This document shows, in pieces, positions 7,001-59,640 of a stretch of 64,000 bases of DNA (position 1 is its first letter; every line of letters starts with the position of its first letter). This stretch comes from Echinarachnius parma (lineage: Eukaryota; Echinodermata; Echinoidea; Clypeasteroida; Echinarachniidae), in assembly GCA_037951105.1 (NCBI GenBank), contig JBAMJV010002924.1, forward strand, positions 183,501 through 247,500, written 5' to 3'. The notes under the pieces were generated by a model. The model searched no databases. It was not told where the DNA came from and worked only from the letters and a program-made list of their open reading frames with translations. The translations under genes and the position numbers were made by a program.

Positions 7001-8706
7001 CGTAATATGTATGACCCTTTTTCTTACCACTTTCTCTATTTTCCACAGTTTTCAAATATTTTTAACATTTTCTGATGTTTTTGTCATTCATTTCTTTCCC
7101 CGGCCTCCACACAACACTCTTTATATTATTTTATACATTATTTCTTTCGCCCATCTTTGCAACATAAAACTTCATTTGAATCACTCTTGACAGGAGGTCA
7201 TACATGTATGTTCTATTACCGTGCAAGTCTACTTTTGATTTTTCGTTCACAGCAATTTAAAACATTCTCTGAGCATCCAATATTTTAGCAACTTGTGTTA
7301 AGGGCAAGTATACAACCAGTTACTTTTTTCTTTCCTTTATCCATAAGTTTTCCCTCTTCTCTTTCCTACCACAGAATGCCCTTCATCGGACCACACCACA
7401 CGGTCGTCCTGATGTCTTCAGGGTTCCATACCCCACCGACCCTGTGCTGAGGCCAGAGCACACTCGAGGGGAGGACCTGACGCAGTCTGCTACAACACGG
7501 CATGTGGCAGAACACACCATGCAACGCTTGCCATCAAACACCCCTGTGATGTCGCCAACTGTGGGGGGCACCACGACCGTTACAAGCTACGCGAGATACA
7601 CCGCCGACCAAAGTCGCAAGGAGCAACTGATAAACACAGCCTCAACAAATACCAGGGATGCCGGTCTCGCCACCCCGATGAAACCACCGGATTCTGCAAC
7701 GTCACCGTATGGTGCGCAAACCAGCGTCATGGCTCAGGCGTCAGAAAAGGCGGCCGGGTCGCCCTTACCCATGGTCACACCGATGCCGTCGACGGCCAGC
7801 CCTGACTTATGGCCAGTGGTCGACGAGCGGGACTATATGAGGATGGTGTCGCCCAATCGCAAGATGGAGCAGCTTGCCAAAAAGCAGATGGAGATGATTC
7901 TTGCCCCTGTTGCGCCGCCGCCGTCACCGGAGCCGGCCGCACACGACGTTGATGTCGACTATGACATCCATGAGATGGCCAAGAGCACTGGGGCATCTTC
8001 ACTGGCACCTCTTGCTGAGGAAGAGGAGGAAGACGGTCACCATGACAACAATGTCATTGTCAATGATAACATCTATGTCAAGGACAATTTCAATGATAAC
8101 ACTATCAATGATGATGTCAACGACGACCTCAATGTCAACGACAATGCCAATGACAATGATAATCTCAGTGACAATGCCGGTGACTTGACAAGGGACGAAG
8201 CTGCATCTGGCCAAAGAGCTGAGCCAGAGAGAGTGGACGCTGGAGCTACTACAACAGAACAGATTCAAGATCCTGGAGAGAGATTAGAACCGGTGAACAG
8301 TGTCCAGACAAACAATGAAGAAAGCACTGAAGTAGAGATGGCTGAGGGAAAGATGGACATTAATGACATTGCCAACAGGGAGATGTCAGAGGCAGCTCAA
8401 ACATTTGTTGAGGAAAGTGACAGAGTCCAAACTGGAACAAGCACGGATATCCTTGTGGATGATCAAGAAGTTGGTGAAGACAGAGGTGTTATAGACACAA
8501 CACAGGACATGAGTGACACTAGTGCAATGGAGCCTTCATCAGATGCCAACCATGAAGCAACTGATCTTCCTCCTGAGGATGCACCAAAAGATACAGAAGG
8601 AGATATTGAAAGCAGCTCCAAAGAGGCTGTGGTAGCAGCATCAGTAGAGGCCGGAGAAGATGACAAATATGCATCAGAAGAGGTGATCCAGGAAGAAACA
8701 GATTAA
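423..8706 (+). CDS. Unrecognised multi-exon gene, 3' portion (join 423-488, 1163-1599, 2630-2758, 3579-3793, 7375-8706)
   Basis: Five exons are bounded by AG acceptors and GT donors, and their phases agree at every junction (2, 1, 1, 0), giving 725 uninterrupted codons that end at TAA 8704-8706. The 5' part of the gene lies outside the window, because exon 423-488 starts in the middle of a codon. The protein begins with an amphipathic helical stretch (IAQLLQLPRDVLLEILEHT, then residues such as YDKSKVSMLLEQLMPLI), passes into a long proline- and serine-rich region, and ends in an acidic, probably disordered tail with an Asp/Asn repeat. I see no enzyme motif, signal peptide or membrane segment. 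A cytoskeletal or scaffold protein would fit the composition, but that is a guess. The gene structure is well supported by splice phase; the function is unknown. Confidence 0.82.
913..1135. repeat. ATAATG/GATAAT microsatellite in intron
   Basis: About 220 bp of alternating AAT and ATG trinucleotides, with switches to CATAAT, lie just before the acceptor of exon 1163-1599. Both strands are open here (poly Ile/Met or Asn/Asp), which is an artefact of composition. The same GATAAT-like motif appears in coding form in the last exon of this gene. Confidence 0.95.
1163..1599 (+). CDS. Coding exon (helix end, Pro-rich segment)
   Basis: A 437-nt GC-rich exon stands out from its AT-rich flanks. The acceptor is TGTTTTCCACAG and the donor follows CTGCGAG. 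It encodes 145 full codons: a short helix (YDKSKVSMLLEQLMPLIRF), then a Pro/Ser-rich stretch with repeated PP and PxxP motifs, then basic and acidic patches ending near HKSIATLRG. The Pro-rich stretch could bind SH3-like domains, but that is only inferred from composition. Several overlapping open frames on both strands here are shadows caused by the high GC content. Confidence 0.8.
1896..2629 (+). repeat. Tandem array of decayed copies of exon 2630-2758
   Basis: Exon-like units start after AG at 1896, 2090, 2272 and 2452, and the functional exon starts at 2630; spacings are 194, 182, 180 and 178 bp. Each unit begins with a polypyrimidine tract and a version of GGAGGACCAACTGAAAACTC. Copies 2 and 4 have an early in-frame TAA. 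Copies 1 and 3 are open over the homologous part but lack a donor in the right phase. They look like intron-exon duplicates now decaying. Confidence 0.8.
2630..2758 (+). CDS. Coding exon, last copy of a tandemly duplicated exon
   Basis: A 129-nt exon lies between TTTTATTGCAG and GTAAGTTT, entering and leaving in phase 1. It encodes 43 residues including PPLQAGVRLTRPFNYTTQAF. Four diverged copies of its acceptor and 5' half precede it at roughly 180-bp spacing. Only this last copy has the full open frame and a strong donor, so it is taken as the functional one. Confidence 0.78.
3070..3172. mobile_element. 103-bp hAT-like foldback MITE, copy 1
   Basis: The ends are inverted repeats starting CATGGGCGTCGAT, with a short G/C-tract loop. 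It is flanked by a perfect 8-bp direct repeat GTATGTAC (3062-3069 and 3173-3180). A second copy lies at 18197-18299 with its own different 8-bp duplication. Eight-bp target duplications are typical of the hAT superfamily. No coding capacity. Confidence 0.88.
3579..3793 (+). CDS. Coding exon (Ser/Thr/Pro-rich)
   Basis: A 215-nt exon between TTTTTTGTACAG and GTGAGTAC starts in phase 1 and ends in phase 0. It encodes about 72 residues rich in Ser, Thr and Pro with several S/T-P sites (for example HTPPVTPASHERTPIPP), which suggests a disordered, phosphorylatable linker. If the donor is not used, the frame stays open to the TAA at 4058-4060. Confidence 0.8.
3794..4056 (+). other. Open extension of exon 3579-3793 into its intron
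   Basis: Beyond the GTGAGT donor the reading frame stays open for a further 88 codons through an unusually GC-rich stretch, ending at TAA 4058-4060. That stop is formed by the TTAA target site of the adjacent transposon. It may be an intron-retention isoform or simply GC-rich repeat sequence. Confidence 0.3.
4057..4619. mobile_element. TTAA-flanked MITE, family 1 (AAAGGGATAGTTGAG)
   Basis: A 563-bp element including TTAA at both ends. The termini are inverted: AGGGATAGTTGAGTTCTGGT on the left and the complement of AGGGAAAGTTGAGTTTTGGT on the right. The centre is a conserved palindrome around GGGGCCCC. No open frame of note. TTAA duplication is used by the piggyBac and Kolobok superfamilies; which one applies is not resolved. 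It lies in intron 4 of the left gene. Confidence 0.85.
4825..5064. mobile_element. Foldback element with ends TGTAGCAGTCACA
   Basis: The left end TGTAGCAGTCACACCGCCAA and the right end are inverted repeats over about 50 bp, both carrying CCAAACCGAA-type motifs. The element is about 240 bp, non-coding and intronic. The target duplication is not clear. Confidence 0.7.
6445..6464. repeat. Homopolymer G tract in intron
   Basis: A G run next to a repetitive stretch (6350-6800) in which phrases such as GGGGGTCTTTAGAGCGGCAA recur. The rest of intron 5065-7374 shows no gene. Confidence 0.75.
6806..6880 (-). other. tRNA-like sequence, probable SINE head
   Basis: On the minus strand an A-box-like TGGCGTAGCGCTTGG is followed at tRNA-like spacing by a B-box GGGTTCAACGCC. 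The acceptor arms do not pair, so this is not an intact tRNA gene. A tRNA-derived SINE or pseudogene is the best reading. Confidence 0.5.
7375..8706 (+). CDS. Terminal coding exon with acidic Asp/Asn-repeat tail
   Basis: The acceptor TTCCTACCACAG is followed by 443 codons and a TAA. The first half is a Thr/Pro-rich linker with one likely helix (YMRMVSPNRKMEQLAKKQME). The middle, about 8040-8180, is a degenerate repeat of GAYAAY-type codons giving alternating Asp, Asn and Val/Ile. The last 170 residues are strongly acidic. The exon continues the phase-0 junction from exon 3579-3793. Nothing indicates a catalytic domain. The 3' UTR follows with two AATAAA signals. Confidence 0.82.
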   Translation, partial: NALHRTTPHGRPDVFRVPYPTDPVLRPEHTRGEDLTQSATTRHVAEHTMQRLPSNTPVMSPTVGGTTTVTSYARYTADQSRKEQLINTASTNTRDAGLATPMKPPDSATSPYGAQTSVMAQASEKAAGSPLPMVTPMPSTASPDLWPVVDERDYMRMVSPNRKMEQLAKKQMEMILAPVAPPPSPEPAAHDVDVDYDIHEMAKSTGASSLAPLAEEEEEDGHHDNNVIVNDNIYVKDNFNDNTINDDVNDDLNVNDNANDNDNLSDNAGDLTRDEAASGQRAEPERVDAGATTTEQIQDPGERLEPVNSVQTNNEESTEVEMAEGKMDINDIANREMSEAAQTFVEESDRVQTGTSTDILVDDQEVGEDRGVIDTTQDMSDTSAMEPSSDANHEATDLPPEDAPKDTEGDIESSSKEAVVAASVEAGEDDKYASEEVIQEETD

Positions 8707-28526: not shown

Positions 28527-30177
28527 GGGGTATTAATTCATGTTATAGGGTCCTAGTGTCTTCTTATCCGTATTTTATGGATATTTCAACTGTTTCCGAA
28601 CCGATTTTGATCACAAAAAATTGTTTGGTCTTAAAGATCACGTGTTTTTGTTTAAAAAAATCATTTTGCTTTGTTTCATTACCTCATATAGATATTTGCT
28701 TCACCAGATTGTGTTACTGCACGCTCAGATGACGTTTCACGCGGAACCATTGCAAAACAAGAACATGGCAGCCTCTAGTGAACAGTCAAAGAAGATGATA
28801 GTGGTTTCAAAAATGTTGATTTTTTTCTATGCTTAGTGATGTACTTGGGTACCACTAAAAGTGACCGGATTTTTGCAATCAGTAACAGCAATCGGCATTT
28901 ATAGTGGTTTATTTCCCTTTAAGGTGACTGCACTATGCTTAAATTGGCCTGAATACCCCGATCAGACATTACTTATGATAAAAAATGACACATACGCTTG
29001 TTTGAACGAAAGAATTAGAATGGAATTGTAAGGCAGTGTAAGCGCCGACTTCTTTTGTCACAGACTGGGGAATCCCACCAAAAATAATTTCCCGCCACTG
29101 CGTAATCCCCACCCCCGCACATGAACAATTGTCCGTTAACCTTCGCAGTTCCGAAAGAGTAGTTGAAGTGAAGTATCGCTGTGACATGTCCATATATACT
29201 ATTGATAGCCTTAATACGGAACCCATTTTTTTTAAATTAGTGGTTGATGGTGCACATGTAAGCGTTTTTCCATTATAATTTGTTTGTGTTATGTATTATA
29301 TTATATTATTTGGCTAGTATACATTAAGTGCAAATAATACTCCCACACAACCATTAATGGGAAGAAGAAGAAAAAAAAAATACGTGCATGAGGCATACCA
29401 AGTTCTGGTTGCGTGTTTCGAATGGCGGTTACTTTGTAACTCAAAGGGAATGATGAAACCTTAGCTAAAAATTTAAAGTTAAATTACATGTTAGACACTC
29501 TTTGATTATATTGCATAATCTTTTCAAGGAATATAATGGTAGAACATTACTATAAAATCGATATTTAAGCAATAATGCTAATGGTAATGACATAGAAGAT
29601 GTTGGGTGCCCAAGAACTATTATTACATATGCATTTTTTCTTCTTCTACATATCAATGTGTATGACTAATTCTAATGAGACGGGGATGGGGCAAATGGGG
29701 ATTGGACAAACATACAAACAAACACAAGTTCATTTTTTGATGTAATCAAAAAATTGCATATAGTGTGCCCCCAAATAATTTGCTCACATTCTGCCGACCA
29801 CGTATGTTATCATGTTAAAACATCATTGGCAATGCTGATGATTATATTTGTGTGGCTATATGGCGCATAATAGGAGAGGGAGATTCCGTGAACAATTACT
29901 TATCTATGTGGATACCTGCCCATGTCATGTTACCCCTCTCGGCCCTAAAGGGAACAACATCCATATCTATCTTTTTTTTTCCATTTTGCATCCACTCCGC
30001 GAGATCCTGCACCATCCCCTTCCCATTTATTTGCATCGACCCCCTGTTCTTTACAAATAATGTTGGCTACGGCCACGGAAGTATTCTAATACTCTACTTC
30101 CGTGGCTACGCCACTTTGGGCGTGATGTGGAAGACTTTCCAAGCAACTTTAACATCTTAACAAAAAGTGCCACAATA

Positions 30178-30835
30178 AGGGCGTTCGTAGTTACAAACTG
30201 CGCATGCGCCAATTTCTGAGACGAAAATTCACTGTACCAAAAACATCGATATTGCCCGTTGTCCCATAGACCTTAGTGCAATTATTGTCACATTTGAAAC
30301 GTGTTTTCACGGGAAATTTGGCTCGAAGTCATAAATGTTTTTCTGAATTAATCATAATGGACATCTCATATACATAAGACTGATTTGTTTTAATTTATTT
30401 TTTCTATTTATTTTCGGATTTCAACCAAAATGTCAACGTTCGTATCTGGGCTTTTATTGAAATCGCAAAGGCCCCATACGAAGATTTGTGTGTACTGTTT
30501 TCTTTTAAGTGTTGAAAACGGGCAAAGATGTGATTTTTATTCTAAAAAAAATTATTTAGCCTGCTTCAAGTTTGAAAATTAAAATGAATGGTTATATTTA
30601 TTCAATTTTAAATATTTTAGGATGAAGGTGAGTTTTGTTTGGTCAGGTCTTTCAAACGTAACGAAACACAAGGAGAATTCACGCACGCACGCGGAAATTC
30701 TGCATAGAGCTACTGTACTTTAAATGCGTGCGTCACAGGCTGTGCCGTAAACGTACGCGTAAAGCCTAAATTTTGGTACAATCTTCCGAAAACCCGGTTA
30801 CGTCCGTTGCTCCATGGGCTAACTACGAACTCCCT
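30178..30835. mobile_element. TA-flanked element, ends AGGGMGTTCGTAGTTA
   Basis: Inverted ends AGGGCGTTCGTAGTTA and AGGGAGTTCGTAGTTA, with TA on each side. The paralogous site at about 50811 (GTGCCATAATTGCTTTA) is empty. A second copy in inverse orientation at about 53797-54880 is split by a family 1 MITE. Confidence 0.82.
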
Positions 30836-31210
30836 TATTGCTTTATGTTGTAGGATATTCCCGCCAATAAACCCACGTAGACTGCTCGTGACAACAAATG
30901 AATAGTGTTTTTTTTCTTTTTGTGAAGCTGCCTATCAAGTCAGTCCCCCGTTTAGTAATTGGCCCACTTCTAATATAATATTCTTGCCCACGTCACGTTG
31001 CCTCTCATGGCCTTGAAGGAAACAAACTCCATATCTTTGTTTGATTATTTAAGACATACTCCGCGAGATCATGAGCCATTTCGTGTTCCCTTTTTGGCGT
31101 AAAACCCCTGTTTTAAAATATAATTTTGGCTAGGGCCACTGCACTAGTATTCTACTTTCACGGCTACTCCACAATGGTTGAGTTATATAAGACTTTCCAA
31201 GCCCCTTTAA

Positions 31211-31589
31211 AGGGACTTAGTAACATTGTCCAAATCCTCAAAATCTAATTGCAATTCTAGTGGTTCCCTCATACCTTGTTGTATTCTTATTAACAAAAAA
31301 AGGCATGGGACAGGTTTCGGTTTTTCAAATTTCCCTTTCGTTAAAAAGATATTTACGATTGAAGTGTTCAGATGACAAATTATTCAATGGATCATCAGAA
31401 CCGTGTACAAAGTGAGTGCAATGAGTTCGTGAATGTCACTTTGCATTTATGCTCATTACTCGGCCATATAAAGTCCATTTTACTTGAAATGTTCACACAA
31501 CACCCAGTGGACATATCATATAACAACAATATAAATTGTATCAACCACTCATTACTTTTTGCACATGTCAACAAAGTTACTAGATCCCT
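31211..31589. mobile_element. TTAA MITE, family 4 (AGGGACTTAGTAAC)
   Basis: TTAA on both sides (31207-31210 and 31590-31593), inverted ends AGGGACTTAGTAACATTGT and AGGGATCTAGTAACTTTGT. The paralogous empty site is at 51169-51172 (CCACTTTAACAGCC). Non-coding. Confidence 0.88.
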
Positions 31590-31752
31590 TTAACAGCTTA
31601 ACAAAAGTACCAGGATGTTCCCGCCAATTATAACCCACGTTGACTGCGCGTGCCAACGACTGAATAAATGTTAGGTGTTTTTGTTATTGTATATAGGTGC
31701 CTATCAAGTCACTCCCCCGTTTAGTAATTGGAGACCCAGAACCTTAATAATA

Positions 31753-33384
31753 TAGGTTTTCCCATTCATTTTAACACTATTGTCATTCAATTTCATTAAT
31801 TCGTCATTCAAATTCGTCCCGAGGAACCACCAGAGCGGAAATCCCATCTTCAATTTCGTCTTTTGTCGATCAATTTCGTCAAAGATCACACAATTTAGTC
31901 ATTAGGCACACATTTTCGTCAATTGCAAATCAAATTCGTCGGTCACAGTTGCTGAACACATAAAAGCGAAAGCAATTTCGTCAATTGGCAACCAATTTCG
32001 TCAAAACTCTATTCAAATTCGTCGCATGGTATAGCCTTATATGCCTGTCTGTGTCATGACTATGTAGATGGTGTAGGTGGTTAGATTGGTATGTATGTGT
32101 GTATCTGTGTGTGCGTGTGTGTGTGTGTACATAATATTTAACATTGTTTAATTTTATTTCCACCGTATGTTTGTCTTGAAAAAGAATTTAATGCAATTTG
32201 CTGTCAACGTGCTTTTGTGAGTGTTGGTGTGCACACATGCATGTGTGCAAATGTATGTGTGTTTGTAAGTGTGTGTATATGTGTTGTGCGTGTGAGTTTG
32301 TTTTCGAGTGTAATATACATGTGTATGTTACCCCCTAAATGATTAATGTTACAATTAGCAGTTATATCAAGACAATATAGAACAGAACATTACAGTGTAT
32401 ATACATTGGACGAATTTGAATAATAATAATATAACATATTTATATAGCGCCTACTGCAGTCCAGCCTCTAAGCGCTTTGAGAAGAAAGTTGTAGATAGAG
32501 TCCATGTTTGAGCTATGACTGAAAATGTTCTTGGAAGAGATACGATTTAAGGTTGATTTTGAAAGAGTCAACAGAAGGAGAGTTTTTAATCCGGTTTGGG
32601 AGAGCGTTCCAGAGAGAAGGACCGATGAAGGAGAAGCTGCGCTCACCATATGACCGGGAGAGAACCTTAGGTTGGACGACGAGGTTGTGGGTAGCTGACC
32701 TAAGTTGACGAGTTGGTGTGTATGGAATGACATGTTCTTGTAGATAGCTGGGAGCTTGACCGTTCATGCATTTGTACATGAGCAGGAGTAACTTAAAACG
32801 TATTCGAAGATGGACAGGCAGCCAGTGAAGGTTATGAAGAATTGGAGATATATGATCATGGCGTTTGGTGCGAGTTATGATGCGAGCGGAAGCATTTTGT
32901 AAACGTTGTAGTCTTGAGACATCTGTGTCGGGGGATCCAGTTAGTAAGCTGTTACAATAGTCGATGTGTGAGGTGATAAAGGCATGAACTAGCTTTTCTG
33001 ATGTTGGTTGATCAAGGTATTTCCGGAGACGACCAATTTTGTGAACTCCAGCCCATCCTGCCCTGATAACTTTGCCAATTTGATCTGTCATCTGGAGGTG
33101 CTTTGAGAAAATAACGCCAAGGTTATAGAGTTTTGACGAAATTGGTTGCCAATTGACGAAATTGATTTCGCTTTTATGTGTTCAACAACTGTGACCGACG
33201 AATTTGATTTGCAATTGACGAAAATGTGTGCCTAATGACTAAATTGTGTGATCTTTGACGAAATTGATCGACAAAAGACGAAATTGAAGTTGGGATTTCC
33301 GCTCTGGTGGTTCCTCGGGACGAATTTGAATGACGAATTAATGAAATTGAATGACAATAGTGTTAAAATGAATGGGAAAACCTA
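31753..33384. mobile_element. 1.6-kb foldback element with CAATTTCGTC-repeat arms
   Basis: Inverted arms of about 260 bp (31753-32015 and 33125-33384) begin TAGGTTTTCCCATTCATT and are packed with the motif AAWTTCGTC. TA flanks both sides. The interior holds a GT-rich microsatellite stretch (32040-32410) and a truncated LINE end (32413-33115). Confidence 0.85.
32413..33115 (-). pseudogene. 5'-truncated L2/CR1-type LINE, C-terminal end
   Basis: An open stretch (32513-33091, minus strand) encodes the last 190 or so residues of a non-LTR retrotransposon ORF2 product. It has the usual region after the reverse transcriptase core: SHIDYCNSLL, LQRLQNASARIIT, LHWLPVHLRIRFKLL, SLWNALPNRI, FKINLKSYLF. 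The catalytic RT motifs and the endonuclease are absent, so it is a dead fragment. It is followed by a 3' UTR with GCGCTATATAAATA and an ATT microsatellite tail, as in L2/CR1 elements. It sits within the arms of a foldback transposon. Confidence 0.85.
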
Positions 33385-33439: not shown

Positions 33440-33893
33440 CACACACCCTATTTCATTTTCGGATTAACGAACCCTAATTCGTTTTCGGACTAACGAACCT
33501 TCGGAATAACGAACGCGATTTCATTTTAGGAATAGCGAACCTTCGGAATAACGAACCTTCGGAATAACGAACCTTCGGAATAACGAACCCGATTTCATTT
33601 TAGGAATAGCGAACCTTCGGAATAACGAACCTTCGGAATAAAGAACCTTCGGAATAACGAACCCGATTTCATTTTAGGAATAGCGAACCTTCGGAATAAC
33701 GAACCTTCGGAATAACGAACCTTCGGATTAACGAACCTTCGGAATAATGCAACAAATGTTCGGATTAACGAACCCTATTTCATTTTCGGATTAACGAACA
33801 CTCAGGTATAGGAAATTTGCGTATTCGGAATAACGAACCTTCGGAATAACGAACCTGCGGAATAACGAACCTTCGGAATAACGAACCGCACCC
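33440..33893. repeat. 16-bp tandem array TTCGGAATAACGAACC, copy 1
   Basis: Many tandem units of TTCGGAATAACGAACC are separated by longer variants with CATTTTCGGATTAACGAACC and CATTTTAGGAATAGCGAACC. The right tip (33750-33893) matches 44685-44830 in reverse, including AACACTCAGGTATAGG, so these are members of one repeat family. Confidence 0.9.
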
Positions 33894-44684: not shown

Positions 44685-45150
44685 TGCGGTTCGTTATTCC
44701 GAAGGTTCGTTATTCCGAAGGTTCGTTATTCCGAAGGTTCGTTATTCCGAACACGCAAATTTCCTATACCTGAGTGTTCGTTAATCCGAAAATGAAATAG
44801 GGTTCGTTAATCCGAACATTTGTTGCATTATTCCGAAGGTTCGTTATTCCGAAGGTTCGTTATTCCGAAGGTTCGTTATTCCGAAGGTTCGTTATTCCGA
44901 AGGTTCGCTATTCCTAAAATGAAATCGGGTTCGTTATTCCGAAGGTTCGTTATTCCGAAGGTCCGTTATTCCGAAGGTTCGTTATTCCGAAGGTTCGTTA
45001 TTCCGAAGGTTCGCTATTCCTAAAATGAAATCGGGTTCGTTATTCCGAAGGTTCGTTATTCCGAAGGTCCGTTATTCCGAGGGTTCGTTATTCCGAAGGT
45101 TCGCTATTCCTAAAATGAAATCGGGTTCGTTAATCCGAAAATGTATTTGG
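44685..45150. repeat. 16-bp tandem array GGTTCGTTATTCCGAA, copy 2
   Basis: The same 16-bp unit as at 33440-33893, on the opposite strand. The unit has no stop codon in any frame on one strand, so it reads as a repeating 16-residue peptide (RYSEGSLFRRFVIPKV). Confidence 0.9.
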
Positions 45151-45295: not shown

Positions 45296-45592
45296 CAAGC
45301 CCGATTTAATTTTCGGAATAACGAACCCGATTTTATTTTCGGATCAACGAACCTTCGGAATAACGAACCTTCGGAATAACGAACCTTCGGAATAACGAAC
45401 CCGATTTTATTTTCGGATCAACGAACCTTCGGAATAACGAACCTTCGGAATAACGAACCTTCAGAATAACGAACCTTCGGAATAACGAACCTTCGGAATA
45501 ACGGACCTTCGGAATAACGAACCTTCGGAATAACGAACCTTCGGAATAACTGAACCTTCGGAATAACGAACCTTCGGAATAACGGACTGTAA
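45296..45592. repeat. 16-bp tandem array TTCGGAATAACGAACC, copy 3
   Basis: Faces copy 2 across a spacer of about 150 bp, so together they form a long inverted repeat. Confidence 0.9.
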
Positions 45593-48664: not shown

Positions 48665-50212
48665 AGCAGTTAAAGGGATAGTGTTGGTTTAGAGGTCGCT
48701 ACACACTTTACCTTTTCATGAGATAATGAAATCTGAGTGTCAGATTTGAAAGAGCATACAATTTTAATGACTGAATAAGCTTTATTTGATCAAAATCGGT
48801 TCAGCAATGGCTGAAATGGCCCCAAAGTTAGTCGATAATTTTGATCCAGCCGTTACAACAATTTTAAAAATGCTTTTTAAAAATCTCTCTAGTTTTAACG
48901 GCTCTTTTCGAATCATTATGATAACAGGCTTTTTACTTATTCATTTGTTGTATTCCTTTCGAGAATGGTGGAGTTATAACTGTTAGTTTGTAATGTATTG
49001 GTGCAGGTTTTGGTTACGTAAATTCAGTTGCTACTGTACTACTGTACTACCCCTTTAAGGGGTATTACTGAATTCATGTTATAGGGTCCTAGTGTCTTCT
49101 TATCCGTATTTTATGGATATTTCAACTGTTTCCGAACCGATATTGATCAAAAGCTAAATTTTTTGGTCTTAAAGATCACGTGTTTTTGTTTGAAAAAATC
49201 ATTTCGCTTTGTTTCATTACCTCATATAGATAGTTGCTTAACCAGATTGTGTTACTGCACGCTCAGATGACGTTTTACGCGGTACCATTGCAAAAAACAT
49301 GGCAGCCTCCAATGATCAGTCGAAGCAGGTGATAGTGGTTTCAAACACATTGATTATTTTTATAGTGATGTACATGGGTACGACTAGAAGTGACCGGATT
49401 GATGCATATCAGTAACAGCAATCGGCATTTCCAGCGTTTCATTTCCCTTTAAGGTGACTGCACTATGCTTAAATTGGCCTGAATACCCCGATCAGACATA
49501 TATTTCGGTAATTAATTATAATAAAAAAATAACACATACGACTTCTTTTGTCACAGACTGGGGAACCCCACTCAAAAAAAATTCCCGCCACTGCGTAATC
49601 CCCGCCCCCGCACATGAACATCAGAACAATTGTCTGTTAACCTTCGCAGTTCCGAAAGAGTAGTTGAAGTGAAGTATCGCTGTGACATGTCCATATGATA
49701 GAACCCCGTTTTTATTAGTGGTTGATGGTGCACAGGTTTAAAGCGTTTTTCCATTATAATTTGTCTGTGTTATGTATTATGATATATTTTTTTGGCTAGT
49801 ATAAGTGAAAATAATACTCCCACACAACCATTCATGGGAAAATTAAAAGAAACAAACGTGCATCAGGCATAACAAGTCCTGGGTACGTGTTTCGAATGGC
49901 GGTTACTTGGTAACCCTCAGAGAATGATGAAATCTTAGCTAAAATGTTTAAAGGTAAATTACATGTTAGACACTCTTTGAGTATATTGCATATTCTTTTC
50001 AAGGAATATAATGGTAAAACATTACTATAAAACCGATATGTTAGCCATAATGCTAATGACATAGACGATGTTGGGTGCCCAACAACTATTATTACATATA
50101 AGTGCATTTTTTCTTAATATAAATCTGTATGACCAGTTGTAATGAGACTCCATAATCTTCCAATGGAGCATAGGCGTACCCAGGCTTTTTTTAAATGTAT
50201 TTATTTATTTAT

Positions 50213-50243
<31 letters not shown>

Positions 50244-51287
50244 TTGAACCCCCCCCCCCCCCCCCCACTTTCCAAATTTTAGCCACTTTTTAGCGGTCTC
50301 GACCATCATTAACTTGGTCTCGGTCTCGAGTACATACAGGGTGGGGCAAAGGGGGGTTTACAAAAATACAAACAAAGACAAGTTCATTTTGTATGTAATC
50401 AAAGAATTGCATAATTATAGTGTGCCCCCAAATAATTTGCTCACATTGGGCCGACCACGTATGTTATCATGTTAAAAACGTCATTGGCAATGCTAATGTT
50501 TTGTGTGGCTATATGGCGCATATGGGAGAGGTGGACTCTGTGAAAACAATTTACTTATCAGTGTGGATACTTGTCGAAGTCATGTTACCCCTCTCGGCTA
50601 TAAACGGAACACAATCCATATCTTTTTTGTTTGTTTTCATTTTGGATCCTCTCCGCGAATCGTGCAACATCCCCATCCACTTACTTGCATTGTTCTTTAC
50701 AAAATAATGTTGGCTACCCCCACGGAACTCTACTTCCGTGGCTGGCTACGCCACTTTGGGCGTGATGTGGAAGACTTTCCAAGCCACTTTAACATCTTTA
50801 AAAAAGTGCCATAATTGCTTTATTTTGTAGGATATTCCCGCCAATAAACCCACGTAGACTGCTCGTGACAACGACTGAATAATAACCTTTTTTTTCTTCA
50901 AGTCACTCCCCCGTTTAGTAATTGGCTAATATAATATTCATGCCCACGTCACGTTGCCTCTCTTGGCCCTGAAGGGAACAAACTCCATATCTTTGTTTAA
51001 TTATTTTGGACCCACTCCGCGAGATCATGAGCCATTTCGTGCCTCCTTCATTGCGTCAAACCTCTGTTTTTAAAATATAATCTTGGCTAGGCCCATGGCA
51101 GTATTATTGTATTCTACTTTCAGGGCTACTCCACGTTCGGTGAGTTATAGAATACTTTTCAAGCCACTTTAACAGCCTAACAAAAGTGCCGTAATTGTTG
51201 ACTGCGCGTGAAAACGACTGAATCCGTGGTTTTTGTTACCGTAGGTGCCTAGCGCCTATCAAGTCACTCCCCCGTTTAGTAATTGCA
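48665..51287. repeat. Dispersed duplication, copy B (pairs with 28122-31730)
   Basis: Colinear with copy A but lacking two transposons present there, and carrying its own insertion of G/C tracts near 50220-50266. It ends at CCCCCGTTTAGTAATTG, immediately before the promoter of the first deaminase-like gene. Confidence 0.8.
48670..49058. mobile_element. Family 2 TTAA MITE, copy 4
   Basis: Same ends as the other copies with a small deletion near the right end, where CTACTGTACTACTGTACTAC replaces the usual sequence. Confidence 0.7.
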
Positions 51288-51316
51288 TGGCTTCTTATCG
51301 CGCGCTAGAAAAGGTT

Positions 51317-51376
51317 TATGATTGGTTGCCGCCCCTAGCTCACGAGAGGAATGTGAGCGAGTATCCAGTATAAAAA
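51317..51376 (+). promoter_or_regulatory. Core promoter of deaminase-like gene 1
   Basis: TATGATTGGTTGCCGCCCC contains an inverted CCAAT box (ATTGG, 51321-51325); a TATA box TATAAAAA follows at 51369-51376, 38 nt upstream of the ATG. The first 14 bases are repeated exactly upstream of gene 2. The short distance from TATA to ATG implies a very short 5' UTR. Confidence 0.7.
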
Positions 51377-51413
51377 CGCTGCGTGTCTTGCAAATCTTCA
51401 CTTATTCTGGAAC

Positions 51414-52436
51414 ATGGATACACACTTTGCTTCAAATCAAAACTATAAGGAAGTTTTGAGTTGGAAACAACCAGATTTTAGTTATTTACTTGGAATACGT
51501 GATTTAATTGATATCAAGTTACATAAGTTAAAGGGTCTTAAGGCTGTACAGTTTTTTGGTGTTGCATTTATTGTGAACGGAAGAAATGTACACATGCCGG
51601 AGGAAATTGGAGACGCGTTCATGGATTGGAAATGGAATCATTATAATCGAGATAATTTCATGTTTAGGTCAAGCCATGAAGGTCAAAGGGAAATGTCAAT
51701 TTGTCCTTATGATTGTTTTTTTTCCACACCAATTAATCTATCCGACAGTGAAATTGAGGAAAATAAAAAAAGGGGGGTTCAAACTTCAAAAGCACACGCA
51801 GAAAAACGGTCGTGCTGCCATTTAATAAGATATATTACTAAATATATAGATCGACTAGAGCTAACAGAAGGTGATATATTAATAATAGAAATGTTATCAC
51901 ATCTTTTGCCCTGTAAATATTGTAGTTGGCAACTAAAATCGTTAATTAAAAAGATAACGGCACAATATCCTACTTTTGAAATATACTTTCATTTGTTTTT
52001 TGAAAAGGTATGCAAACAACCATGTGTTAAACAGGCAAAAACAAACAGGCAAAAACAAACCAAAGGACAGGCAAAAACAGGCAAAAACAAACAGGCAAAA
52101 CCAAACCAAACCAACTTTGACGAATTTAAAAAATTAGAACAAATTAGTGAGCGGATTAAATTGTACTATGTTTGTCATCGCGACAAAGAAAATATAGATG
52201 ACAACATGCATAATAATAATAATTGCATGGGTTTTGACAGTCCGTCTGCCCAGCATTTACCAGACTTAATAAAGGATTGGAAGCCGGTAAGCATGGTAAG
52301 ATACGAATCCACCTCAAATTGTAGCCCATTGCCATTTACCGTGTTCGAGTCACCCGGTACAATCTCCCCTGTAGACATGGTAGAGCAGTATTCAGTTCCC
52401 CCAAAAAGATTGCCATTACAGAATTTACAATCGTAA
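51414..52436 (+). CDS. AID/APOBEC-like cytidine deaminase candidate, single exon (gene 1)
   Basis: A 340-residue intronless frame, ATG in good context (AACATGG). Residues 128-130 are H-A-E and 166-170 are P-C-K-Y-C, separated by 35 residues. This is the zinc site of the deaminase fold: H128, C167 and C170 would bind zinc and E130 would be the proton shuttle. The strand before the PCxxC helix (GDILIIEMLSHLL) resembles the AID/APOBEC arrangement, and residues 43-55 (KAVQFFGVAFIVN) fit the first beta hairpin. Residues 206-234 are a Lys/Gln/Asn-rich insert encoded by a DNA tandem repeat; FEIYFHLF before it and DEFKKLEQISERIKLYYV after it align with gene 2. The C-terminal 90 residues look disordered. 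Substrate (DNA, RNA or free nucleoside) is unknown. TadA/CDA-type deaminases are an alternative. Confidence 0.7.
   Translation: MDTHFASNQNYKEVLSWKQPDFSYLLGIRDLIDIKLHKLKGLKAVQFFGVAFIVNGRNVHMPEEIGDAFMDWKWNHYNRDNFMFRSSHEGQREMSICPYDCFFSTPINLSDSEIEENKKRGVQTSKAHAEKRSCCHLIRYITKYIDRLELTEGDILIIEMLSHLLPCKYCSWQLKSLIKKITAQYPTFEIYFHLFFEKVCKQPCVKQAKTNRQKQTKGQAKTGKNKQAKPNQTNFDEFKKLEQISERIKLYYVCHRDKENIDDNMHNNNNCMGFDSPSAQHLPDLIKDWKPVSMVRYESTSNCSPLPFTVFESPGTISPVDMVEQYSVPPKRLPLQNLQS
52032..52113 (+). repeat. In-frame tandem repeat CAGGCAAAAACAAAC
   Basis: Imperfect copies of CAGGCAAAAACAAAC, 15 bp and so frame-preserving, encode the basic insert of gene 1. Gene 2 has no counterpart. Confidence 0.85.
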
Positions 52437-52444
52437 GCTAAAAA

Positions 52445-53796
52445 GTTGGGTTAGGGTTAAGGTTTAGATTAGGGTACGAGTTATCTAAATTCAGATTGTG
52501 TTTTCCATGTCCTTTACAAGTCCGTATCCCTTGTATCAAATTTTAGCGGCAATTATTTTTGTTTTATCTGTTTGGAATGTTATGTACAATATATCAGGAC
52601 CGATACCGAATGTGTGTTCGGGTCGCGATATATTATCATGGTAAAAGCAAGTTGTACCATAATTTAACATAATCAAATGATGGACAAAAAAAAAAAAAAC
52701 AAAGGATCCGTACAGCCAGGAACACACAGAACCGTTCGAGTTCTGATAGTTTCAGAAACGGAATTCTTTGTCAAAGCTCTTATTTCATGTTTTCTTAATC
52801 CACATCCTGGCTGCTGATGAAGAGTGTGGCATTTTTTGTGATTAATTTTGATTTTGTAGTCACTAGTTATAAAGATGTTCTGACTGTTCCGAATTTTCTC
52901 TGTACCTACCTGTTAAATATATGGAAATATTTTAGTCAAATGTGTTCGTTTGTGTTGTGGCAAAATTTATCCATTAAGATTGATTCATCGAACCATGTTC
53001 ACCTATTGATAACAGAGAAAATCTGAAATGTCAGAATTTATCGCCATTGTTTGCGTTAAGTATCCGAATTCGGATACTATGAAGGATTTAGTTTCTAAAT
53101 TTGAATACTCTTGGCTACGATCGTACAGCGTTCGGAAACTCTGTTCAATCCAATCTGTATTGTCTTCATAATAAGTAGCAATAGGGCATACAAATTGTTA
53201 GCATTTGTGATAAATAATTTTTGTTGGACCGTGTGTATTAATTACACAGGCAGGTTATATAAATAAGGCATAAGCACATGTTTTATTATTGTGCAATAAC
53301 AAAATATTGATCAGTCCATTTGTGCACTTAGTTAAAACAAAATATCTCATATTTACTTATGATAAAATATATGTTATTGTATATCAAATTAAAGATAAAA
53401 TTACCTCCTTCAATATTGGAGTAAAGTTTTGATGAAATCATTCATGCATGACTTGTCACGGTCAATTAACCACCGCTAGGTCTGTTTTCAAAAATAGCAA
53501 AAATAGAACATCCATTCCACCATACAAATGTTGATAAGCACAATCTAAAATGCCATATCATGATATATCATAATCTTTTATTACAAAAGTTATATTTGTT
53601 ATTTTCATCTCAATACAAAAAGCATAAATTTTGAACGTTAAATGTTTTATTTTCATCCACATGTAACAATTTAACGGGGAATTCCATGGCAAAGGTTTAT
53701 TCATCGAAACAACAGTTTGTGCCCTTATTTAAGCATGAAATGTGGTATACAGACTTCTCAAGAATTCTACTGCAGTCCACAGATCTTCAAAAGATT
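52445..53796. other. 3' flank of gene 1
   Basis: Starts with a GGGTTAGGGTTAAGG stretch just after the stop. Contains the block conserved with the gene 2 locus (52598-52866). The open frame at 52817-53026 begins in that block but its frame is not kept in the paralogue. The rest is AT-rich with no gene. Confidence 0.5.
52598..52866 (+). other. Conserved downstream block, gene 1 copy
   Basis: Matches 59270-59600 in patches, most strikingly the 34 or so bases that begin CACATCCTGGCTGCTGATG, and the phrases GTTTCAGAAACGG, AGTTGTNCCATAATT and GATCCGTNCNGCCAGGA. It lies 160-430 nt after the gene 1 stop and is probably 3' UTR or a flanking element. Confidence 0.7.
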
Positions 53797-57760: not shown

Positions 57761-57844
57761 TATGATTGGTTGCCTGCCCCGACTTGCCCCTCCTCCTTTC
57801 TCAATTCCACCAGTCATTCGGACGAGTACCGAGCAATATAAACC
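57761..57844 (+). promoter_or_regulatory. Core promoter of deaminase-like gene 2
   Basis: TATGATTGGTTGCCTGCCCC with an inverted CCAAT box (57765-57769), then TATAAACC at 57837-57844, 58 nt before the first ATG. The layout and the first 14 bases equal those of gene 1. Confidence 0.65.
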
Positions 57845-57894: not shown

Positions 57895-58610
57895 ATGTCG
57901 ACTGAAATTGGTAAAACGTCCGAACCGCCAAGCAATTTTAATTCACCGGACTTCCCGTGGAATGCGAATTTCTTGGTAAGTTGTTTAAATATCAAGGATC
58001 CAGAATTGTCTTGGCTGAGCCTGAGTCAATTCTGCACGCTTTTTATTTATACAAAACACGCGAATGGCATAATGGCTCAACAAGACGCCACGGCAAGGCA
58101 GTTTCTTTCTTGGTTTCTACCAAGAACGGAAAGCAGCCACACCTGTTGCGTGATAGGATCAAAAACTCTTTAGTTTCAGCTCAATGCACCTTTCCTGATA
58201 ATTTTGTCCCTGCTTTTCGTAAGGATGGAAGGAAGGGAGAGGGCCACTCAGAACGACAGATCCTTGTTCGCACGAACAAGAAAACTACTAAATGTTTCAT
58301 CGAACGAATTAGATTAGGTCGTGAGGACAGATTAGAAATCTGTCTGTTCACACACTTTTCATTCTGTGCATTCTGTACAAACCGTGTGAACTCATACCGC
58401 GATCTGGTCAAGTCCGTTTTACGTGAGCATTTTCAGCAAAATCCACCCGAAGTAGATTTCAAAATTTACTATGAAGTAAAATATTGCGTTCCGAAAAACC
58501 CATCCCTTACAGAAGAGTACTTTCGGAAGTTCAATGAACTACAAAGTAACAATAACGACCTTGAAATTAGGTCCGTCAGGCGTCCGTTCGAGATCTTCAA
58601 CGATCAATAG
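57895..58610 (+). CDS. AID/APOBEC-like deaminase candidate, single exon, frameshifted near start (gene 2)
   Basis: The deaminase frame is open from about 57939 to the stop at 58608-58610 and encodes about 217 residues (numbered from 57957). H97-S-E99 and F136-C-A-F-C140 are 36 residues apart, like gene 1; the zinc ligands and glutamate are kept but the usual Pro before the first Cys is Phe. Further shared blocks with gene 1 are KAV-x-F, VDFKIYYEV and EYFRKFNELQ. The deaminase frame has no ATG; the only well-placed ATG (57895) starts a frame one base away, reading MSTEIGKTSEPPSN. So either one base is wrong or lost near 57950, or the gene is a young pseudogene. A GTAAGT at 57975 does not lead to a phase-compatible acceptor that I can find. 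The last codons lie in a large inverted repeat. Confidence 0.62.
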
Positions 58611-58805: not shown

Positions 58806-59640
58806 GGTATCATCGAAGATTCTTAATCACCTTACAGTGCACCATGGAGCTGGTCAACATGACTTGTTCTGATGAACATAATGCCTTTTTTTTCTTTCTT
58901 AAAAAATCCCGGGGCAGATATGGTCGCATATAGGTGCACGATTGAGGGGGACTTCCCTACGAGAGATTCTGGTGCAACTTTATTCACAATTGAATGATAT
59001 TGCCAATACAACAACAATTACGACTTTCCCCGAGAGTTTTTTAAAGCATCCATTTTACCAATTTCAGGATTACCATTCATTACCTTTCGAGCGGTGAATC
59101 TGTTTGACCTATGGGTTACGTGCGGGGTGAAAGGACGGTCGTCTGTACGTACTGGGAAACAGTTCAGTATATCGACCATCAAGATACTTCCCACATACAC
59201 CATGATCGCACAGACAGATTCTTTACCAAGACATCGACGGATCTTCATCATCGGTTTATCATGTTTATTCGGAATGTACCCCAACATATTTGTATTGGGG
59301 TATATACCAAGATGGAAAATGCGAGTTGTGCCATAATTAAATCGTTTTTTATTAAGATTTGCGGACCAAAAAAAGAGAGGAAAAACAAGAAAAAAGAAAC
59401 AAAAATGAAAACAAAACAAAAACAAAAACAAAAGAAAAAAAAGATCCGTCCGGCCAGGATCAAACAAATCACATATGTTGTGTTTTGTTTGTTTCAGAAA
59501 CGGTCTTTTATTTTAGCATAATTCTTGTTCCCATTTTGTCACATCCTGGCTGCTGATGAAGAGTGTGGCATTTTGGGTTTTATATTTATAGTCATTTTTT
59601 TCAGAAACTTGCTAATCGACTCAAACAGAAAATTACATTT
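58806..59640. other. 3' flank of gene 2 with conserved block (59270-59600)
   Basis: Contains a TACCCCAA/TTGGGGTA hairpin near 59276-59301, an A-rich tract (59368-59440), and the segment starting CACATCCTGGCTGCTGATG shared with 52598-52866. The overlapping open frames on both strands are compositional (poly Lys or poly Phe). Confidence 0.6.

Follow-up and report, generated by a model that had tools for sequence, protein, structure and literature searches.

AID/APOBEC enzymes act in vertebrate antibody diversification and virus restriction, and the immune use of such enzymes before lymphocytes is the question on which the gene family described here bears. For the locus itself the questions are narrower: does an open frame of 340 codons in Echinarachnius parma, picked out from its letters as a candidate deaminase, belong to this superfamily, and could its product still act as an enzyme? 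The window, meaning the whole stretch of 64,000 nucleotides that was analysed, corresponds to C2923:183501-247500, and the genome searched comprises 1.2 Gb in 14790 contigs. An echinoderm origin is supported by its cox1 (C14600), in which TGA is read as Trp and the sole AAA codon of the translated part, residue 86, falls on the second Asn of RMNNMSFW, a position that is also Asn in the aligned mammalian COX1. AAA for Asn together with AGA for Ser belongs to the echinoderm/flatworm code (table 9), though a single codon is thin evidence. An rRNA-like stretch lies ahead of cox1, and nad4L-like and cox2-like frames come after it, an arrangement typical of echinoids or holothuroids. On sequence comparison it is likely that the host encodes a divergent zinc deaminase of AID/APOBEC-like type in this frame, and that the gene belongs to a small intronless clade standing beside a larger set of single-frame deaminases in the same genome.

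As shown in Table 1, the frame (P0001) lies on the forward strand together with a promoter unit, a conserved 3' element and a second, deaminase-like frame. Translation gives 340 codons with no internal stop and places HAE at residues 128–130 and PCKYC at 166–170, with 35 residues from E130 to P166, exactly as the original prediction had it. The TATA promoter that it had named is also present, the TATAAA starting 45 nt upstream of the ATG. Over its six frames, the window has a single instance of the pattern H[AVS]E-x(24-36)-PCxxC, and 40 dinucleotide shuffles have none; open frames of at least 340 codons number two in the window and none in 40 shuffles. The gene is called intronless because the whole ORF is open and its paralogs likewise lie in single open frames, in line with the single-exon structure predicted from sequence; at all 19 of 19 genome places the NAD1 match, found in a search that reads through stops, contains no stop. 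A K/Q-rich insert sits just after presumed beta4/loop 7. The single-sequence structure model of the protein has a pLDDT of 39, with no residue at 70 or above.

Table 1. Positions of the deaminase locus features within the window.
Feature	Position	Strand	Basis
Upstream DNA, blocks 73–84% identical to that upstream of L044/L045	49539..51377	+	DNA comparison
Upstream blocks, third copy, in pieces	29046..31731	+	DNA comparison
Promoter unit of the window gene: TGATTGGTTGC, 39 nt, TATAAA at 51369	51319..51374	+	Pattern search
P0001, AID/APOBEC-like deaminase (probable), intronless ORF, 340 aa	51414..52436	+	Translation, paralogs, HMM, tree, profile-profile
HAE, residues 128–130: presumed zinc ligand H128, presumed catalytic E130	51795..51803	+	Alignment columns
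PCKYC, residues 166–170: presumed zinc ligands C167, C170	51909..51923	+	Alignment columns
14-nt repeat array (AAACAGGCAAAAAC-like) encoding the K/Q-rich insert, about residues 206–233	52029..52110	+	Repeat families D1, D4
3' element of the window gene; core CACATCCTGGCTGCTGATGAAGAGTGTGGCA at 52801	52687..52858	+	DNA comparison
Promoter unit, second copy: TGATTGGTTGC, 63 nt, TATAAA at 57837	57763..57842	+	Pattern search
Second open frame, deaminase-like: HSE, spacer of 36 residues, FCAFC	57942..58610	+	Clade HMM, E 7e-13
3' element, second copy; core at 59540	59422..59587	+	DNA comparison

Searched by itself against Pfam, the window protein gives nothing better than E 0.43, and NAD1 is not reported; NCBIfam yields no match and the PDB nothing of note. 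Since it has no direct family match, its membership of the superfamily is reached through a chain of paralogs. In its own genome, tblastn finds three more places, with E-values between 8e-13 and 1e-12 at 36% identity, which are single open frames of 264–272 aa and match NAD1 (23 bits, cut-off 27), SNAD4 and APOBEC_N. In an alignment of the window protein with 22 paralogs (A2, 23 rows; L009, L014 and L015 entered without their acidic tails), every row but that of the window protein itself, 22 of 23, matches APOBEC_N, NAD1 and SNAD4 at E ≤ 0.01. The profile of A2 finds APOBEC3G first in the PDB (E 1e-20), followed by A3H, A3C, A3F and AID, with the zinc motifs aligned. The profile search proposed in the original prediction had two outcomes, being empty for the protein alone and positive for its paralogs.

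The link between the window protein and these paralogs was examined with HMMs. An HMM of the other 22 rows of A2, from which the window protein was excluded, finds it at E 1e-14, against E 0.0035 for the best of 2000 shuffles; among 259 window ORFs used as decoys, only one scored above the best shuffle (E 2.7e-4), and this was the second deaminase frame, which came to light in this way. With an HMM of four clade rows, the E-value of the window protein is 2.6e-25. An HMM made from the 18 A2 rows outside the clade fails to tell it from shuffles (E 3.3e-4 versus 7.5e-5 for the best shuffle). For the step from the clade to the other deaminases, five of the eight clade places (A3; the near-copies L003, L004 and L045 were left out and the N-terminus of L022 was shortened) were compared by hhalign with 14 rows from outside the clade (A4), drawn from the 20 such rows in the tree described below by omitting L011, L016, L019, L021, L023 and L036. 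The match has a probability of 93 and an E of 3.4e-7, with HxE aligned to HxE and PCxxC to PCxxC; A3 searched by itself against the PDB finds no deaminase. By way of the paralogs, these sequence comparisons link the predicted protein to AID/APOBEC as a homolog. The divergent family member that had been proposed is supported by paralogs, paralog HMMs, the profile-profile match and the tree, and a direct Pfam match is the part that did not appear.

The number of relatives in the genome can be given as lower bounds, since this is how place counts have to be read for large families. NAD1, APOBEC_N and SNAD4 exceed their Pfam cut-offs at 19, 19 and 18 places, respectively; NAD1 and APOBEC_N together cover 21 places, to which SNAD4 contributes none, and a search of the genome with PF18750 gave no additional place. 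Seven clade places come on top, namely P0001, the second window frame, one on C13073, two on C5244 and two on C4586, so that at least 28 deaminase-like places are present, alleles included. C5244 and C4586 are 99.1% identical over 3.3 kb at L003/L004 and 93.7% over 2.1 kb at L044/L045; they look like two haplotypes, and the number of genes would accordingly be smaller than the number of places.

In a tree of 27 rows (the 23 of A2, to which the second window frame, L044, L033 and L036 were added; the allele L045 omitted; tails beyond runs of at least 8 D/E cut; midpoint root), a split with support 98/99 sets P0001, L002–L004, L022, L044 and the second window frame apart from the remaining 20 rows. 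These seven rows and the allele L045 make up the clade of eight places. The position of the window protein within it is not resolved (85/72), and long branches were flagged, among them that of the second window frame. The rows of A3 share 19–33% identity with the window protein. NAD1 (PF18778, Novel AID APOBEC clade 1) is the best Pfam model for L002–L004 (23 bits) and L044 (21.9 bits), all below the cut-off of 27, and L022 on C1256 reaches 30.4 bits and is over the cut-offs of NAD1, APOBEC_N and SNAD4. SNAD4 and SNAD1 match the other clade relatives more weakly.

The original prediction had taken the 35-residue spacing, longer than in vertebrate AID, as a sign that the protein may belong to a poorly described clade. 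The spacing is indeed 35 residues from Glu to Pro in P0001, L002–L004 and L022, and 25–31 in the other 18 rows of A2; from HxE to the Cys the length is 43 in L044, the same as in P0001, and 44 in the second window frame. However, the family range is H[AVS]E-x(24-36)PCxxC in the account given by PMC5956068, and because 35 lies inside it, the spacing by itself does not set a new clade apart. That the clade is a poorly described one is nevertheless plausible on other grounds, which are the tree and the promoter and 3' element that its members share. Among titles and abstract openings, no publication was recognisable as describing it; Krishnan 2018, the field's principal survey, was outside this scope, and priority for the clade cannot be claimed.

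The second window frame is found here as a further, damaged-looking member of the clade. Phe replaces the Pro of its PCxxC motif, Pfam gives no deaminase match (best other E 0.12), and its nearest relatives are the genes on C13073, C4586 and C5244 (E 8e-5). It has no in-frame ATG; the ATG at 57895, 58 nt past the start of the TATAAA, opens a different frame. It is probably either broken or carries a short intron.

Both frames are preceded by the same promoter unit. The core TGATTGGTTGC, which we take to be an inverted, NF-Y-like CCAAT, occurs twice in the window with both strands counted, each time ahead of a deaminase frame and followed by TATAAA; its start lies 95 nt upstream of the ATG of the window gene. 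This double occurrence is a new observation. The unit also precedes L002–L004 and L044/L045, which brings it to seven of the eight clade places, and in the stretch examined at the eighth, L022, it was not found. TATAAA stands 51–52 nt upstream of the ATG in L003, L004, L044 and L045, and 17 nt upstream of the first ATG in L002, whose ORF starts further upstream; as a background, TATAWA is found 45–55 nt upstream of 21 of 1351 ATGs in the window. In the whole genome, the core followed by a gap of 40–60 nt and TATAAA occurs at 16 sites, five at clade deaminases and 11 elsewhere, a gap range that misses both window promoters (39 and 63), and the reversed control pattern occurs at five. Since 11 of the 16 sites are elsewhere, the unit is not exclusive to the clade.

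The 3' element, whose conserved blocks are GTTTCAGAAACGG and CACATCCTGGCTGCYGATGAAGARTGTGGCA, lies behind the genes. It was found at no fewer than eight places in the 1.2-Gb genome, seven of them at clade copies and one on C8593, and three of the seven clade matches span 36 bases only; this association is also new here. The core is absent from the non-clade deaminase loci examined and from the L022/L043 loci, so L022 alone among the eight clade places has neither promoter unit nor 3' element. At the C8593 copy (73044-73085, L088), a look at the preceding 1.6 kb revealed no deaminase frame. Several identities for the element were considered and set aside. For a histone-like 3' end, Rfam gives nothing over gathering scores anywhere in the window and nothing in 52650-52900 at E ≤ 1; for a 3' coding exon after a conserved TTTCAG, the frame that runs between TTTCAG and the core varies among copies when read by eye; and for a common repeat, eight genome places were found, as a lower bound. 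RNAalifold on six rows pairs CCAGGA with TCCTGG and contains two pairs with compensatory changes, and the single-sequence folds of the two window elements disagree with each other; an RNA structure is only a suggestion of these models.

The flanks of the window gene were also compared with its coding sequence. The upstream DNA at 49539–51377 holds two imperfect copies of a unit of about 370 nt. Between the window gene and L044, the 3' element is 92% identical, the aligned codons 46% at the nucleotide level and the proteins 28%, a gap that would fit very fast coding change. This argument is weakened because the third copy of the upstream blocks comes with no deaminase that could be detected: it ends shortly ahead of the point that matches the window gene's promoter, it has no promoter core, and no deaminase coding sequence was detected behind it. 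Duplication of the blocks can thus happen independently of the gene. For ten paralog pairs with bootstrap, one of them from the clade (L002/L003), dN/dS is 0.48–1.16, several values lying near 1; the 95% interval includes 1 in nine of the ten and excludes it for L010/L012 only. Neutrality would predict 1–13 nonsense changes per pair, and the pairs were drawn from open frames. The clade allele pairs have lower values, 0.09 for L003/L004 (four differences) and 0.29 for L044/L045 (eight differences). The paralog values fit fast evolution of maintained proteins and are not proof of positive selection. From these parts, a wider reading can be put forward as a speculation of low probability: the clade would be a co-regulated intronless deaminase module, with a CCAAT-TATA promoter and a structured, nearly clade-confined 3' element, in which coding sequence diverges fast and pockets are rebuilt while the regulatory frame stays fixed. 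A site of processing or self-regulation could then be the purpose of the 3' element, which might perhaps even be a target of the deaminases.

The residues of the presumed zinc site are well conserved. In the columns of A2, all 23 rows have H128, C167 and C170, and 18 of the 23 have E130. The other five rows (L011, L016, L019, L021 and L023, on C9325, C2205, C8059, C2015 and C8196, respectively) have S, A or T for the catalytic Glu, as HVS, HAA or HAT, and STC for SPC, with the His and both Cys kept; they form a branch with support 100/99 and are likely pseudo-enzymes.

The substrate pocket of the window protein is less conserved. It has been reported that A3A holds its target cytosine by the backbone carbonyls of W98 and S99 and by Y130 of loop 7 (PMC5414352). 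In the alignment, the window protein has L164 and L165 at the first two of these positions and lacks a residue at the third, loop 7 reading FFEKIYCKQ in L044 versus FFEKV-CKQ in the window protein. Among the 27 rows, read by eye, 25 have Ser two places ahead of the first Cys, where the window protein has L165, and 25 have the loop-7 Tyr; the position of L164 is Y, N or F in 26 rows and aromatic in 23. All three pocket features are absent from the window protein and two from L033, and the classical AID/APOBEC1–3 pocket, an aromatic-Ser ahead of PC plus a loop-7 Tyr, is not that of the window protein. With L164-L165 and without the loop-7 Tyr, the protein would therefore probably have a changed substrate preference or weak activity, and whether it is enzymatically active is uncertain.

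On the preferred reading, H128, C167 and C170 would bind zinc and E130 would activate a water molecule, so that C is turned into U in nucleic acid that is single-stranded. The protein would then most likely serve as an intracellular effector mutating foreign or mobile-element nucleic acid. By analogy to SpAIDL and LaAIDL, among which there are active mutators in E. coli assays and whose transcripts are enriched in microbe-exposed tissues according to PMC5956068, the most likely function is that of a nucleic-acid cytidine deaminase of innate immunity, an immune role that is assigned by analogy only. The altered pocket makes changed or lost activity a serious rival. On one such reading, which we regard as possible though less likely, the protein would be a zinc-binding pseudo-enzyme that keeps fold and ligands, has a pocket refusing cytidine, and acts by binding as a decoy, regulator or nucleic-acid sensor, aided by the basic K/Q-rich insert. 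The two leucines, the lost Tyr and the position of this insert after loop 7 speak for it, as do the probable precedents in the same genome, the five Glu-less rows of A2. E130, on the other hand, is retained in the window protein, and because the A3A contacts of W98 and S99 are made by backbone carbonyls, side-chain changes there need not kill activity.

A different explanation of the same pocket changes and of the repeat insert is decay, in which the frame would be a recently inactivated or relaxed copy that is open by chance. Its neighbour looks broken and lacks an in-frame ATG, and in the probable allelic pair of L044 (372 open codons on C5244) and L045 (C4586), L045 has stops in the deaminase frame. 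Against this stand 340 open codons with a promoter unit, an ATG and a 3' element, the zinc and catalytic residues that are intact despite the low identity to the A3 rows, and the low dN/dS of the clade allele pairs, few as their differences are; decay is accordingly judged unlikely. A generic zinc motif could also belong to a free-nucleotide or tRNA deaminase (CDA, dCMP deaminase or TadA) or to a toxin-type deaminase, and Toxin-deaminase (PF14424), dCMP_cyt_deam_1 and XOO_2897-deam do match 12, 7 and 5 of the 23 rows of A2, respectively, at E ≤ 0.01. Their best E-values are weaker, those of APOBEC_N, NAD1 and SNAD4 being far better, and dCMP deaminase comes last among the best 60 of 66 PDB matches of A2, a list led by APOBEC3s and AID, so this alternative has very little probability. 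The preferred reading is still that of a divergent AID/APOBEC-like deaminase gene.

Among known systems, the closest comparison is with SpAIDL of Strongylocentrotus purpuratus as presented in PMC5956068: the host is an echinoderm, the protein is of APOBEC_N type with H[AVS]E-x(24-36)PCxxC, and there are several loci, broken copies and allelic variation, as in the family of the window. SpAIDL1 and SpAIDL4a, set against the window protein by their description there, have 193–194 aa and a recognisable APOBEC_N domain. The window protein, in contrast, has 340 aa, no direct Pfam match, an altered pocket and a K/Q-rich insert. SNADs are marked by a signal peptide in the description of PMC11004436, and none is apparent by eye at the N-terminus of the window protein. 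Vertebrate AID and APOBEC3 share the order of the zinc motifs, and the profile match to them is that of the wider set A2; they differ in having the aromatic-Ser ahead of PC and the loop-7 Tyr, and human AID has 198 aa in the same account (PMC5956068), compared with the single ORF of 340 codons here. With at least 28 places, mostly single frames, some without the catalytic Glu and several pairs near a dN/dS of 1, the family resembles the APOBEC3 arms race, here in an animal lacking antibodies, to which the clade contributes a divergent pocket and shared regulatory sequences.

Some further features were seen in the paralogs and in the window. L009, L014, L015 and L017 carry long Glu-rich or Asp-rich terminal runs. 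A frame of 192 codons at 32513-33091 on the reverse strand presumably resembles the end of a reverse transcriptase, and has no Pfam match at E ≤ 0.1. The same search gave no match for a frame of 420 codons with a GTG start at 7444-8706 on the forward strand, which by eye is rich in acidic residues, N and T and is perhaps an exon. Finally, arrays of a 16-nt repeat (TTCGGAATAACGAACC) occur in both orientations at 33484-33887, 44688-45139 and 45312-45584 of the window.
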